Assembly: GCF_001579805.1 (NCBI RefSeq)
Contig: NZ_CP014546.1
Location: forward strand, 6,262,001-6,326,000
Direction: 5' to 3'
Source: Pseudomonas azotoformans
GTDB taxonomy: Bacteria > Pseudomonadota > Gammaproteobacteria > Pseudomonadales > Pseudomonadaceae
DNA: 64,000 nt
Positions 1 through 23,686 of this stretch are shown here, piece by piece. The notes under the pieces were generated by a model. That model did no database searches. It had not been told where the DNA came from and saw only the letters and a list, made by a program, of their open reading frames with translations. The position numbers and the translations under genes were made by a program. Numbering within the stretch: position 1 is the first letter of the stretch; the number at the start of each line of letters is the position of its first letter.

Positions 1-156
1 AATCGCGCGAATTTCCAAGCGAATCGCCACATCTGGATCAGGACGTTTCTGACGCTTCAAATAGCCGTGAAAGCCCGACACCGAGACCTCCATCACTCGA
101 CATAACAGCCTGACTGGAAAGTGAGTCCGTTCACGGGCGACAAAGGCGTATCTCAG
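1..156 (-). CDS. IS3 transposase OrfB, N-terminal fragment (runs off window)
   Basis: The minus strand is open from the frameshift site to base 1 in the -1 frame relative to OrfA. The translation around the OrfA stop reads LRYAFVARERTHFPVRLLC and continues MEVSVSGFHGYLKRQKR, which is the typical start of IS3-family OrfB (HTH_21 region before the DDE integrase core). There is no good independent start codon, so it is probably made only as an OrfAB fusion by -1 slippage at 185-192. The catalytic DDE part lies outside the window, so integrity of the transposase cannot be judged. Confidence 0.7.
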   Translation of the reverse strand, partial: MRYAFVARERTHFPVRLLCRVMEVSVSGFHGYLKRQKRPDPDVAIRLEIRAI

Positions 157-446
157 TTGGACTCTTTGGCAAAGAACGCCGTCGCTTTTTTTAGGATTTC
201 TCGCTCCATTTTGAGCGTGGCATTTTCAGCTCGAAGCCGAGCCAGCTCGCTTTCCAGGTCAGAGACCGGATGCCGGGCAGGAGAACTGAGAGGACGCCCG
301 TTGCGTGCGGCGTCCAGCCAATTACCTAAGGTTTTGACCGAGATATCCAACTGTCGGGCAGCTTCTCCTCGACCAATGCTTTCAGCGAGTGTCACTGCCT
401 GAGCTTTGAAGTCGTCGGTGTAACTGCGGCGAGTTTGCTGTGCCAT
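153..446 (-). CDS. IS3-family transposase OrfA
   Basis: 97-residue protein starting MAQQTRRSYTDDFKAQAV. It has the IS3 OrfA helix-turn-helix (residues about 8-50: DDFKAQAVTLAES, then RQLDISVKTLGNWLD) followed by a leucine-rich coiled coil (ESELARLRAENATLKMERE) for multimerisation. It binds the element's ends. The start at 446 was preferred to the longer open frame because GGAGG lies 6 nt upstream. The reading frame ends KKATAFFAKESN with the A AAA AAG slippery heptamer inside the KK codons, as expected for programmed -1 frameshifting into OrfB. Confidence 0.85.
   Translation of the reverse strand: MAQQTRRSYTDDFKAQAVTLAESIGRGEAARQLDISVKTLGNWLDAARNGRPLSSPARHPVSDLESELARLRAENATLKMEREILKKATAFFAKESN
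185..192 (-). promoter_or_regulatory. Programmed -1 frameshift slippery site
   Basis: On the minus strand seven A residues are followed by GCG, giving an A AAA AAG heptamer in the orfA frame shortly before its stop codon. The -1 frame continues into OrfB. Such a heptamer is the standard site by which IS3 elements make the OrfAB transposase. The presence of the heptamer is seen; its function is inferred. Confidence 0.7.
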
Positions 447-510
447 AAGTGCCTCCAAGATTGCGATTAAAATATCGCTTCTTGGCGTCCGCTGCGAGGG
501 AACAAGTCCA

Positions 511-575
511 CCAAAACGCTCTTGCCCCAACACTCGGCACCTCGCTTAGGCTCGGTGTGCCCGTAATCCGACAGT
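511..575 (-). repeat. Partial inverted copy of the three-way-junction repeat tail
   Basis: Read on the minus strand this matches the tail of the repeat at 985-1045 and 23199-23250. The shared part includes GCACACCGAGCCTAAGCGAG, then GGTGCCGAGTGTTGGGGC and TTTTGG. Similarity stops close to 510 where the insertion sequence begins, suggesting that the IS inserted into, or next to, this repeat copy. No gene is supported here. Confidence 0.7.
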
Positions 576-655
576 GATTTGGGGGGCCGCCGCCACGCGC
601 CATCCATGGCGCGGGGCGGCTAAACCGGCATCCCTGCCGGTTTACCCCCCAAATC
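576..655. repeat. 80-nt palindromic element folding as outer stem plus two hairpins
   Basis: The outer arms GATTTGGGGGG (576-586) and CCCCCCAAATC (645-655) are perfect inverse complements. Between them lie two hairpins. The first pairs 589-603 with 606-620 (core CGCGCCAT/ATGGCGCG, one mismatch). The second is AAACCGGCA (622-630) with TGCCGGTTT (635-643) around a TCCC loop. This outer-stem/two-hairpin plan is the same as in the repeats at 893-981 and 23100-23188, though the sequence differs. No ORF with coding character overlaps it. Confidence 0.7.
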
Positions 656-664
656 CCTGCCGAA

Positions 665-888
665 TTCCGGCCAGCGTGTTTGACGGGGCGCCTAAGATCA
701 AAATCAAAAGCAAAAGCACAGCGGCCTGACAGCCGGCTTGAGTGGTGTAGAGCATCTGGATAAACACGGCGTCCTCACGTTTTTCGCCGGCAAGCCGGCT
801 CCTACAGAGGACAAAAAACGTATCCACGATGCGAAGCGAGTCGCTCTTGATCTTGATTTGAGGCGCCCCGTTAAACACGCTGGCCGAA
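665..888. repeat. Long inverted repeat pair with an internal REP-like motif
   Basis: About 45 nt at 667-713 (GGCCAGCGTGTTTGACGGGG, then GCGCCTAAGATCAAAATC) recurs inverted at about 838-886 with a few changes. The enclosed 120 nt contain a short REP-like palindrome, GCCGGCAAGCCGGCTCCTAC (about 788-807), of the fluorescent Pseudomonas type. No gene is supported. The arrangement looks like one repeat element assembled inside another. Confidence 0.6.
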
Positions 889-1118
889 CGCAGGCTTTGG
901 AGCATGGGTAACCCGGCAGGACGCCGGGTTAGCCGCGCTGGGCCAAGGATGGCCCATCGCGGCGGCCCACGCTCCAAAGCCGGAGTGAGGGCACACCGAG
1001 CCTAGGCGAGGTGCCGAGTGTTGGGGCAGAGACCTTTTGGTTACTTTTGGGGCGTTTGCCAAAAGTGACCCGCTGTAAGAGCGGAACCATAGGCGGCCGT
1101 TACCTAAATAACGGATAT
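883..1118 (-). repeat. Structured intergenic repeat, copy 1 (downstream of the DUF2802 gene)
   Basis: About 235 nt nearly identical to 23089-23325. The core (893-981) has an outer stem GGCTTTGGAGCATGGG/CCCACGCTCCAAAGCC with a single mismatch. Inside it are two hairpins: TAACCCGGC/GCCGGGTTA (909-931) and GCCGCG..GGGCCA/TGGCCC..CGCGGC (932-963). A further hairpin is GGTTACTTTTGG/CCAAAAGTGACC (1039-1070). The outer limit CGGATATGTACTCAA sits 9-25 nt after the stop codon of the minus-strand gene ending at 1127. The small ORFs within it are not credible genes. Confidence 0.8.
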
Positions 1119-1126
1119 GTACTCAA

Positions 1127-1519
1127 TCAACTCTTATGCAACTTACTCATCAGTTGCGCCTCAGCCTGAGTCAACCCACAAGACTGCGTCAACTCATCCA
1201 CCGTAGCCCCCATCCCCACCAGCTTGGCAGCCTGGGCAAACGAAAGACTCGAAGGATCCCGCTGCTCAATCTGCGCCAGTTTGTCAGGCAACGGCGCAAG
1301 AATCGCGCGCAATTCATGCACCTCGTCCCCGACCTTCACCGCACTCTGCTGAAAGTGATCAACCCGCTTCACCAACTCCAGCATCCGCCGATCACGCACA
1401 GCATCACGCTCAGCCTGCTGCAACAACAGTTCACGCTGCTGACGCACATAGCGCAACAGAAATGCCAAAGTCCCAGCCCACAGCAGGGCCAGGACAATCA
1501 CCGCGGCCTCAAGGAACAA
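1127..1519 (-). CDS. DUF2802 membrane-anchored protein of the chemotaxis cluster
   Basis: 130 residues. One N-terminal membrane helix (about 3-24, AAVIVLALLWAGTLAFLL) is followed by a charged coiled-coil stretch (25-85). A C-terminal helical segment resembles a small HTH (FAQAAKLVGMGATVDEL..CGLTQAEAQLM). This is the DUF2802 family, often the last gene of Pseudomonas che/mot operons; its function is unknown. The frame opens with TTG directly after the cheW stop (TGA-TTG), so translation is probably coupled; no ATG gives a full-length product. It is the terminal gene of the operon, followed at once by the structured repeat. Confidence 0.8.
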   Translation of the reverse strand: MFLEAAVIVLALLWAGTLAFLLRYVRQQRELLLQQAERDAVRDRRMLELVKRVDHFQQSAVKVGDEVHELRAILAPLPDKLAQIEQRDPSSLSFAQAAKLVGMGATVDELTQSCGLTQAEAQLMSKLHKS

Positions 1520-21540: not shown

Positions 21541-22881
21541 TCAGGCGTAGTAGTCGACGGCGCTGGAGCCGATCACAGTAGAGGTCACGGGTGCCACGGC
21601 TTCAGCCACGTCAACGTGCGCGCCGCTGTCGCCGCTGTCACTACGTCCGCCGCTGCGGCTCACGCCACCGGTCTGGGCCTGCTGCTGTTGTTGCTCCTGG
21701 CCACGGGACTGGTCGGACACGTTCACATCCACCTGCCCCATGCCCTGTTGGGCGAACATCTCGCGCAAACGGCCGGACTGGCTTTCCAGCGCCTCACGCA
21801 CCACCGGGTGAGCGCTCATGAAGTTGACCTGGGCTTGCTGGTCGGCGGTCATGTTGACCTTGATATCCAGGCGACCGAGCTCGGCCGGCTGCAACTGGAT
21901 CTCCGCCGACTTGAGGTTGGCGCTGGACAGGTACATCACGCGGTTGACGATTTCGTCGGTCCAGCCGCTCTGGTGCATGGCCAACGGCGCATTGGTCACC
22001 GGCGGCAAGGCGTTGGCGGTTTTTGGCGTGGCGGCCTGGGTCAATGCCGCCAGGCGGTTGGCGAAGTCATCGACACGGGTGTCGCTGCTGGCGTTCTTCA
22101 GGTCCTTGAGGCCGTCTTCGATCAGCCCGCCGAAGGCCTTGTCACCGCCCGTGTCAGTGCTGTCCTTGGTGGCTTGCTGGTCGACCATATTGGCCAGGCC
22201 GGCGGCAAAGTTCTGTGCGGCGGTGGGTTGATCCTGGGTCGGGGCCGGGGCGGTTTTGGCCTGGGCCTGACTGCTGGCCGAGACGTGACCGCCCTGCTCC
22301 ATCGCCAGGCGCACGGCGGGCATGGCGTCCAATGGGTCGGCTTCCGGGTCAAAGACTGGCTTGGCTTCCTCGGTCGCCGCTACCGGTGCTGCGACTACCG
22401 GCTGGGCCTTGTCATCCTTGACCGTGGTGACTGGCGCCGCCGGGGTTTCCACCGGCACTGGCACGGCTATCGGAGTGACGGTGGCAATCAGGGCCGGGTC
22501 GACCACCGGGTCAGCCGGAGGCTGCTGCACCAGGGTCGGGTCGGTTGGCGCGTCATCATCTTTGCTGGCGCTGTCGTCGGTCTTGGCCGGTGGGGTGGCA
22601 GGCAAGGTATTGCCGCTATCGGCAACGGCTGGCGTGCTGGCGGCAGGTTTGTCGCTGCTGGCCGCTGGCTTGACGCTGGCGTCGGAGGACTTGCCGGCGG
22701 TGGGCTTGGGCGAGTTGTCGTCGGGCTTGACCGTGGGTTTGGAAGCCTGGTTGGCGAACACTTGAGCGAAGCCAGGGCCCTTGTCCCGTGGGTCCGCAGC
22801 CACTGCCGGTGGGTTGGCGGCGGGCGCTTGAGGCTTGGCCGCGGGGGCAGCCTGAAGGAGCGAATTCGGGGCGACTGGCAT
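21541..22881 (-). CDS. fliK: Flagellar hook-length control protein FliK
   Basis: 446 residues. A long Ala/Pro/Asp/Lys-rich disordered N-terminal part (about 1-300) acts as the molecular ruler. The C-terminal domain (about 325-410, with IQLQPAELGRLDIKVNM and VNFMSAHPVVREALE) interacts with FlhB to switch export specificity. A Gln-rich QEQQQQQAQ stretch follows it. The start at 22881 (MPVAPNSLL) is favoured by GGAGA 8 nt upstream. It is a single gene with its own sigma-54 site at 22933-22948. Confidence 0.93.
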   Translation of the reverse strand: MPVAPNSLLQAAPAAKPQAPAANPPAVAADPRDKGPGFAQVFANQASKPTVKPDDNSPKPTAGKSSDASVKPAASSDKPAASTPAVADSGNTLPATPPAKTDDSASKDDDAPTDPTLVQQPPADPVVDPALIATVTPIAVPVPVETPAAPVTTVKDDKAQPVVAAPVAATEEAKPVFDPEADPLDAMPAVRLAMEQGGHVSASSQAQAKTAPAPTQDQPTAAQNFAAGLANMVDQQATKDSTDTGGDKAFGGLIEDGLKDLKNASSDTRVDDFANRLAALTQAATPKTANALPPVTNAPLAMHQSGWTDEIVNRVMYLSSANLKSAEIQLQPAELGRLDIKVNMTADQQAQVNFMSAHPVVREALESQSGRLREMFAQQGMGQVDVNVSDQSRGQEQQQQQAQTGGVSRSGGRSDSGDSGAHVDVAEAVAPVTSTVIGSSAVDYYA

Positions 22882-22932
22882 AGGTAAAGGTCTCCACTGC
22901 ATGGGGGTCGGGGATGCAGTATTGGGAGGTAG

Positions 22933-22948: not shown

Positions 22949-22989
22949 GGTTTGGGTTTTGGTGTGTATATCCGTTTTTTGGGTAACGG

Positions 22990-23325
22990 CTGGTATGGGT
23001 TCCGCCCTTACGGCGGGTCACTTTGGAAAAGCCGGAATGCCGGCCCAGCCCAAAGTAACCAAAGGGCTCTTGCCCCAACGCTCGGTGTGGCCGAACGCAG
23101 GCTTTGGAGCGTGGGTAACCCGGCAGGACGCCGGGTTAGCCGCGCTGGGCCAAGGATGGCCCATCGCGGCGGCCCACGCTCCAAAGCCGGAGTGAGGGCA
23201 CACCGAGCCTAAGCGAGGTGCCGAGTGTTGGGGCGAAGACCTTTTGCTTACTTTTGGGTCTTTCCAAAAGTGAGCCGCCGTAAGGGCGGAACCCTAAGCA
23301 GCCGTTACCGCAGCAACGGATATGT
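22990..23325 (-). repeat. Structured intergenic repeat, copy 2, with flanking inverted arm
   Basis: 23089-23325 is nearly identical to 883-1118. The outer stem GGCTTTGGAGCGTGGG (23100-23115) pairs perfectly with 23173-23188, enclosing two hairpins. To its left, 22990-23088 is an imperfect inverted copy of the tail (GTTCCGCCCTTACGG.., CAAAGTAACCAAAGGGCTCT), so the whole region is a giant palindrome of about 335 nt. The right boundary lies 14 nt after the hptB stop. Nothing else is visible in the 457-nt gap between fliK and hptB except the fliK promoter. Confidence 0.8.
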
Positions 23326-23338
23326 ACTCAACAAATCG

Positions 23339-23686
23339 TCAAATCTGAAACCGCTGCCGCTCCGTCTCATACAACGGCTTCACCAAAGCAAACTCCCGAT
23401 CAATCTGATCCACCAACTCCCCCAGATCCCCAACCGCAGACCCAACAGACTCAGCCTCCAACCGCTGACACAACTGCGCCAACCGCACCGCCCCAAGGTT
23501 CCCACTGCTCCCCTTGAAACTATGCGCAATCCGCCCCAACGCCTTCGCATCATCCCTAGCCTTGCGCAACGCCTCGACGCGCTTCTGGGAATCATCAAGA
23601 AAGGTATCCAGCAACTTCGGATACTCGCCTTCCATGACTTCCTGCAAACCCGACAGCACCTGCGGGTCCAGATGTAGATCAACCAC
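23339..23686 (-). CDS. hptB: Histidine phosphotransfer protein HptB
   Basis: 115 residues, a single Hpt four-helix domain with phospho-accepting His55 in RIAHSFKGSSGNLGA. In P. aeruginosa HptB receives phosphate from several hybrid kinases (RetS, PA1611 and others) and passes it to HsbR, affecting biofilm and motility. It is identified from the hsbR/hsbA neighbours and size. It lies 30 nt after hsbR and is followed by the structured repeat. Confidence 0.88.
   Translation of the reverse strand: MVDLHLDPQVLSGLQEVMEGEYPKLLDTFLDDSQKRVEALRKARDDAKALGRIAHSFKGSSGNLGAVRLAQLCQRLEAESVGSAVGDLGELVDQIDREFALVKPLYETERQRFQI

Follow-up and report, generated by a model that had tools for sequence, protein, structure and literature searches.

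The closest described counterpart of the feature studied here is the TwoAYGGAY RNA, Rfam family RF01731 (clan CL00106). In the part of PMC2864571 available to us, TwoAYGGAY is listed as probably an RNA and not cis-regulatory, with occurrences in the human gut, γ-Proteobacteria and Clostridiales; Rfam types the family as Cis-reg. A CsrA-binding motif was matched to TwoAYGGAY in PMC4333381, the accessible portion of which proposes CsrA sequestration. Dispersed repeats are known separately from P. fluorescens. According to the accessible sections of Silby et al. 2009 (PMC2718517), the intergenic repeat R200 is 320 bp long, occurs in 47 copies in SBW25 and 8 in Pf-5, and shows a bias towards tail-repeat-tail placement.

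We analysed a 64-kb stretch of DNA, referred to below as the window, from a genome assembled as one contig of 6.86 Mb. The original prediction had described two direct copies of a folded repeat at 883–1118 and about 23089–23325, and both are present on the plus strand. RF01731 accounts for all three Rfam 15 matches in the window, each exceeding the curated threshold of 43 bits. The features of the two loci are as follows.

883–1118, plus strand: unit 1, the first copy of the original prediction; P1 with HP1 and HP2, then HP3, HP4 and HP5, ending in GGATATGTAC
886–988, plus strand: TwoAYGGAY core of unit 1, 46.0 bits (RF01731 threshold 43)
895–979, plus strand: P1 of unit 1, arms about 895–908 and 966–979
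910–930, plus strand: HP1 of unit 1, loop AGGAC
932–963, plus strand: HP2 of unit 1, loop AAGGAT
994–1013, plus strand: HP3 of unit 1, containing a tandem G·A
1039–1070, plus strand: HP4 of unit 1, with a T·G (U·G) pair retained in 85/85 units
1070–1084, plus strand: HP5 of unit 1, loop GTAAG
552–678, minus strand: TwoAYGGAY core of the opposite unit, partner of 883–1118, 59.1 bits; unit truncated by an insertion sequence at about 510
668–886, no strand: centre of the pair, inverted inner arms 668–711 and 843–886, 44 nt, 89% complementary
22957–23334, no strand: second element, single core, inverted outer arms 22957–23031 and 23260–23334
23089–23325 (approximate), plus strand: unit of the second element, the second copy of the original prediction
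23093–23195, plus strand: TwoAYGGAY core of the second element, 49.0 bits
22968–23085, minus strand: core-less outer end of the second element, HP4/HP5 present, reading outward leftward
1127–1519, minus strand: DUF2802 gene (PF10975); third-position C.05 and T.33 in the last 174 nt
23339–23686, minus strand: Hpt-domain gene (PF01627), the hptB of the original prediction; third-position C.03 and T.29 in the last 174 nt

The feature at 883–1118 belongs, as a single unit, to a non-coding element of mobile type that is dispersed through the genome and whose commonest form here is two TwoAYGGAY units back to back. The original prediction did not include this divergent pairing; the third, opposite-strand copy at 552–678 forms a divergent pair with 883–1118. 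An IS3-type insertion truncates the minus-strand unit of this pair at its outer side. The second element has terminal inverted arms of 75 nt that are 80% complementary and, judged from the ORF list only, carries no coding gene, as is characteristic of a MITE. The predicted outer stem closing two hairpins, with a GGTTACTTTTGG/CCAAAAGTGACC hairpin downstream, was borne out: the plus strand of unit 1 folds at −127.5 kcal/mol compared with −94.2 (sd 4.9) in 200 shuffles (z −6.7). The minus strand of unit 1 also folds well (−120.4 kcal/mol, z −7.7), so that folding by itself does not identify the strand. An A/G mismatch at 904/23111, said to be the single difference between the copies, is there; it is not the only one, since identity is 92% across 236 nt, rising to 96% when only the first 176 nt are counted. 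The copies do lie close to gene stops, 8 nt from that of the DUF2802 gene and 13–15 nt from that of the Hpt gene, but both are antisense to those genes.

To define the conserved pairing, we used 85 distinct complete units from Pseudomonas loci. Each of the five hairpins was paired in more cells than the maximum of 300 shuffles, which do not preserve relatedness: 100.0% in HP1 (shuffle maximum 94.9), 99.8% in HP2 (92.3), 95.0% in HP3 (91.9), 99.7% in HP4 (96.6) and 100.0% in HP5 (96.0). Two-sided pair changes were seen in each of HP1–HP5, and partners slid by 1–3 columns pair far less. Because its sequence varies by class, P1 cannot be scored in one register, in which 69% of it is paired; among 43 distinct arm pairs, a unit's own arms average −33.3 kcal/mol and swapped arms −19.1. 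The conserved pairing that had been anticipated therefore holds up, with strong covariation in P1 and HP1–HP5 across the 85 units. A further candidate helix, HP6 (CCGTT/AACGG), is unsupported; its 90.6% pairing equals the shuffle mean of 90.6% and falls below the shuffle maximum of 91.5. In the covarying strand, HP4 contains 89 G·U cells and zero A·C cells, and wobbles of the G·U type only point to an RNA made from the strand named here. HP3, with 26 A·C and 2 G·U cells, adds nothing to the strand argument.

HP1 and HP2 both present GGA loops of the RsmA/CsrA type, with predicted binding. HP2 loops among the 85 units are ATGGAT (51), AAGGAT (30), AGGGAT (3) and AGGGAC (1), and HP1 loops are AGGGAT (40), AGGAC (39), ATGGAT (4), AAGGAT (1) and AGGAT (1). 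The pattern ANGGAY thus occurs in 85/85 HP2 and 45/85 HP1 loops; the other 40 HP1 loops, AGGAC or AGGAT, are one base short of the CANGGANG motif. The Y at loop position 2 of AYGGAY is not strict, as A or G is also found. When the closing C-G pair is included, CANGGANG can be read in 85/85 HP2 and 45/85 HP1 loops, and in the section of PMC6849547 available to us this is the Rsm-binding motif used. At least two GGA hairpin loops are present per unit, as is asked of a sponge RNA. A GacA box (consensus TGTAAG-N6-CTTACA) was not found upstream of any of the 41 units in the source genome, all of which have 3–6 mismatches of 12, and no recognisable promoter was established at the units. TTTT occurs within 15 nt after HP4 in 0/85 units, leaving HP4 without the U-tract of an intrinsic terminator.

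The source genome contains at least 41 RF01731 cores above threshold and one below, with 150 of 280 first-look candidates scored. Searches with each unit type agree with these copies; 40 of 61 first-look candidates were scored, and the counts are lower bounds. We read 26 loci, comprising 17 divergent pairs with cores pointing outward, 8 single units and the two-ended, one-core element at 22957–23334; a degenerate 27th locus near 4,545,300 was excluded from locus and end counts. In 15 of the pairs both cores exceed the threshold, and in the other two only one does. Different unit types are combined in 14/15 two-core pairs, as judged by the query matched over its length. The end-to-end size is 666–791 bp in 14 uninterrupted pairs and 356 bp in the second element of the window. 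On the inner (upstream) side of many units, variable runs of the hexamer TTGATC precede a conserved AGGCGCCCCGTYAA, for example at window positions 700–711 and 843–860. All copies in the source genome (2.74–6.34 Mb) are 1.22–3.20 Mb from dnaA with none nearer the origin; a REP-type repeat occurs all round the chromosome.

Beyond this genome, 185/298 genomes of the genus sample are above threshold and 211/298 have a match at E ≤ 0.001; at most nine candidates were scored per genome, making copy numbers floors. In the class sample, where at most seven candidates were scored per genome, 16/369 genomes are above threshold and 24 have a match at E ≤ 0.001, the source genome included. An exact-pattern search returned 22 stretches, every one in a record titled Pseudomonas (records of the source genome may be omitted). 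Divergent pairs recur in 5/20 other genus loci (L062, L071, L073, L074 and L075, with two cores in tandem in L068) and in 3/19 class-level loci (L111, L115 and L119, with two in tandem in L125). Sequences from other families mostly, though not always, keep GGA-type loops, the second loop being ACGAC in L111, L114 and L116, and by eye several retain a long downstream hairpin and, after it, CGC. In another genome, L066 2310–2507 contains a C4 antisense RNA and its a1/b1 targets, the latter scoring below threshold, about 0.8 kb away from a TwoAYGGAY unit.

The same locus occurs with or without the element across genus genomes. With many loci, such presence and absence between genus genomes and conserved pairing, the proposal of a dispersed, mobile-type, non-coding element is upheld. 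No target-site duplication was found, the mean repeat being 3.00 in 15 loci and 2.92 (sd 0.12) with swapped flanks. The IS3-type insertion of the window (1–510; HTH_Tnp_1 OrfA at 153–533) has a 3-bp duplication, CCA, and ends TGGACTTGTTCCC/GGGAACAAGTCCA. Insertions of this type lie at or in HP4 of a unit in three composites of the source genome: that of the window, L034 (near 2490) and L033 (2908–3417). The IS3-type insertion may target the repeat.

By an ORF heuristic, the neighbouring gene presents its tail to 24 of 41 outer ends in the source genome and its head to the other 17; the heuristic admits open-ended ORFs, so head distances of 0–2 are artefacts. A stop codon lies ≤25 nt away at 16/24 tail-facing ends as a raw count. 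Stop proximity is therefore common, not the rule. The second element sits between hptB and fliK and leaves in place, upstream of fliK, the sequence TGGCCC-N4-CTTGC, which we take to be sigma-54-like. Beside the second element, the predicted N-terminal part of FliK (22488–22902) has many P, A, T, K and Q residues, a composition expected from C/A-rich codons.

Outside the hairpin end, the outward strand is enriched in C and A and depleted of G and T at 41/41 ends, a footprint that fades over ~500 bp into neighbouring coding sequence. The 41 outward flanks have C.42 and G.14 in their first ten bases, C.45 and G.09 in the next ten, and C.33–.34 and G.28–.30 at 800–900 nt. Antisense to 24 control genes in the window, the first 20 nt inside the stops have C.30 and G.24. 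Over the first 300 nt outward, C exceeds G and A exceeds T at 41/41 ends, and a skew of at least.25 was found at 29/41 ends compared with 2/64 control windows (either sign, >900 nt from any unit). Tail and head sides both show the footprint, as do 20/20 ends from named records. C exceeds G at 29 and A exceeds T at 27 of 32 ends in other genus genomes; at 15 class-level ends the footprint is weak (C>G at 11, A>T at 7).

Such a skew is not a property of any intergenic repeat, as judged from one REP-type repeat of the same genome: its 48 ends at 24 loci have a mean skew of.05 (C>G at 33, A>T at 19), and 0/48 reach.25. In the eight single units, the hairpin (HP4/HP5) side is skewed and the upstream side, by means, is not, which disfavours breaks at a long palindrome as the cause. 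Replication-fork direction is likewise disfavoured because the skew is positive in all four end classes, with contra-directional ends somewhat stronger (.35 vs.26, p = 0.03). Tails are more skewed than heads (.35 vs.26, p = 0.007). Three outer ends without a detected core are also skewed. The GGA core is thus not needed for the footprint, which suggests that the outer end, not the core, is what matters.

To compare loci with and without the element, we took the 30 nearest orthologs each of hptB and the DUF2802 gene from the 298 genus genomes. By eye, L163 and L184 (hptB) and L190 and L196 (DUF2802) were called element-bearing though the pattern missed them, and L210 was called element-free though flagged. 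A further 21 more distant hptB loci (L133–L153), none with the element, were excluded. In the last 240 nt of hptB, third-position C is.10 with the element (12 loci) and.31 without (18), and T is.27 vs.15; for the DUF2802 gene, C is.10 with (10) and.25 without (20), and T is.27 vs.13; P values for this comparison take related genomes to be independent and are therefore too small. On the tree, element-bearing and element-free genomes are interspersed. At fourfold sites, from loci without to loci with the element, C goes from.34 to.12, T from.10 to.20 and G from.51 to.66 in hptB; the corresponding shifts in DUF2802 are.30 to.11,.08 to.22 and.59 to.64. The head-side gene T2SSE (PF00437) gives the mirror pattern, with third-position G in its first 240 nt at.11–.23 in 14 flagged loci and.15–.51 in 15 without the element. 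Genome G121 carries the element at hptB, where the gene is skewed, and has no element and no skew at DUF2802.

Close relatives also differ in their substitutions. Between the sisters L189 (with the element) and L191 (without), third positions of the gene show T for C 12 vs 4, G for A 7 vs 1 and G for C 6 vs 0, while all positions of the upstream kilobase show 15 vs 12, 7 vs 7 and 6 vs 4. Summed over six with/without pairs, which share genomes and are non-independent, the counts are T for C 70 vs 18, G for A 36 vs 14, G for C 40 vs 14 and T for G 27 vs 9; the upstream sums are T for C 79 vs 99, G for A 64 vs 44 and G for C 33 vs 38. Orthologous genes thus show the footprint mainly where the element is present, with exceptions. 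L174 (G286) lacks the element at hptB yet has third-position C.09 and T.29; the sequence after its hptB stop (GGGTACAACCC) could be a scar. L186, also without the element, is skewed or partly skewed (C.17, T.24). L203 has the element and is weakly skewed (C.16), and L228 (T2SSE, element called by eye) is unskewed with third-position G.30. In L167 (G140), only two element ends, joined by a few bases, are left after the hptB stop, and the gene is unskewed (C.29).

The explanation to which we give most weight, and which we hold tentatively, is that the dispersed element carries divergent Rsm-binding RNAs whose outward transcripts are stopped by Rho in flanks that have become G-poor and C-rich after insertion. 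The units would be transcribed outward, and their paired CANGGANG-type loops would bind RsmA/RsmE dimers, so that together the copies could form an Rsm sink spread over the genome. Lacking an intrinsic terminator, the outward transcript would enter the neighbouring gene, antisense to it on tail sides, and would be stopped there by Rho. Rho rut sites are C-rich, and once an element has inserted, the outward strand of the neighbouring sequence would become poor in G and rich in C. Where two units are paired divergently, a transcript that comes in from either flank would contain one copy in sense orientation.

Several observations argue for this Rsm and Rho explanation: the above-threshold RF01731 match, the covariation in P1 and HP1–HP5 with G·U-only wobbles in HP4, and CANGGANG in every HP2 and 45/85 HP1 loops, together with the CsrA binding of TwoAYGGAY predicted in the accessible portion of PMC4333381. 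Divergent pairs make up 17/26 loci here and recur elsewhere in the genus as well as in other families. An outward excess of C over G and of A over T holds at 41/41 ends, is confined by means to the hairpin side of single units, and is weak at the control repeat; the ortholog test at three genes and the absent U-tract after HP4 fit as well. Against it stand the lack of an established promoter, GacA boxes with at least 3/12 mismatches at all 41 units, the 40/85 HP1 loops one motif base short and the skew at the three core-less outer ends. The ortholog exceptions also count against it (skew or part skew without the element in L174 and L186, weak skew in L203, none in L228), as does the weak skew outside the genus. 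The excess of T for G (27 vs 9 over six non-independent pairs) would not be favoured by selection for C-rich rut sites.

Strand-biased mutation fits nearly as well, and we regard it as possible though somewhat doubtful. Here nicks, breaks or strand displacement would recur at the outer end; the strand with its 3′ end towards the element would often be single-stranded and gather C-to-T, A-to-G and other lesions, so that ~500 bp of neighbouring sequence is mutated. With similar reserve it may be put that the TwoAYGGAY outer end is a local strand-specific mutator, causing loss of C (and A) from the inward strand after insertion across ~500 bp of coding sequence flanking a divergent pair on either side and reshaping the codon use of the neighbours. 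Tail and head sides share one direction, indicating that the skew is not tied to the neighbour's transcription, and single-unit skew is limited to the HP4/HP5 side. The skewed core-less ends, the excesses of T for C and G for A in the six pairs and the mostly unskewed nearest element-free relatives are equally consistent with mutation. G for C (40 vs 14) and T for G are in excess too, however, which makes one simple deamination insufficient; neither target duplication nor enzyme was found, and the ends-only remnant in L167 is unskewed. The substitution pattern does not separate Rho selection from strand-biased mutation.

A preference for inserting where composition already switches strand would account for skewed flanks at all 41 ends, but is unlikely given that element-free orthologs of the same genes are mostly unskewed and that, in L189/L191, only the element-bearing genome is skewed. 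Least probable is the RNA role at mRNA 3′ ends of the original prediction, according to which the element acts on the upstream gene's mRNA by protecting, processing or terminating it: 16/24 tail-facing ends lie ≤25 nt from a stop and the antisense strand folds well, but 17/41 ends face heads, the HP4 wobbles (89 G·U, 0 A·C) favour the strand antisense to tail genes, TTTT follows HP4 in 0/85 units, and a covarying strand antisense to hptB and the DUF2802 gene means that this is not an mRNA 3′-end element as proposed.

TwoAYGGAY has so far been an RNA of unknown function with predicted CsrA binding, and its dispersed, often paired form in 185/298 genus genomes brings its role within reach of experiment in a genus whose Gac/Rsm system is well studied. 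If the footprint reflects selection, it documents Rho's action against antisense transcripts of a mobile element; if it reflects mutation, the element alters its neighbours strand-specifically. Natural experiments are available in close relatives that differ in whether a given locus carries the element. A paired, dispersed TwoAYGGAY, the HP3–HP5 extension and the flank footprint were not found in full-text literature searches, which covered titles and abstract openings and left subscription journals mostly aside.

The feature is known in part, through RF01731 and its predicted CsrA link and through the dispersed P. fluorescens repeats in the accessible sections of PMC2718517. R200 (and R178) are intergenic repeats like the element, likened by description rather than by sequence, and an RNA or flank effect is absent from the sections of PMC2718517 covered; R200 may be the TwoAYGGAY element family. 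MITEs resemble it in being non-coding, with inverted outer arms and many loci, but the element here shows no target duplication (15 loci), and no parent transposon was noticed. REP elements and REPINs are repeated extragenic palindromes; the element is much longer and multi-helix, and the flanks of the REP-type repeat tested lack strong skew. CsrB/RsmZ-type sponges share the paired GGA-loop hairpins, whereas this element is a dispersed repeat and not one gene, shows no GacA box at the 41 units of the source genome and has predicted binding. RF01731 itself is matched above its curated score, with the same two GGA-loop hairpins inside an outer stem; compared with it, the element described here has a longer covarying unit (HP3–HP5), is multi-copy and often divergently paired, and has a compositional footprint outside its ends.
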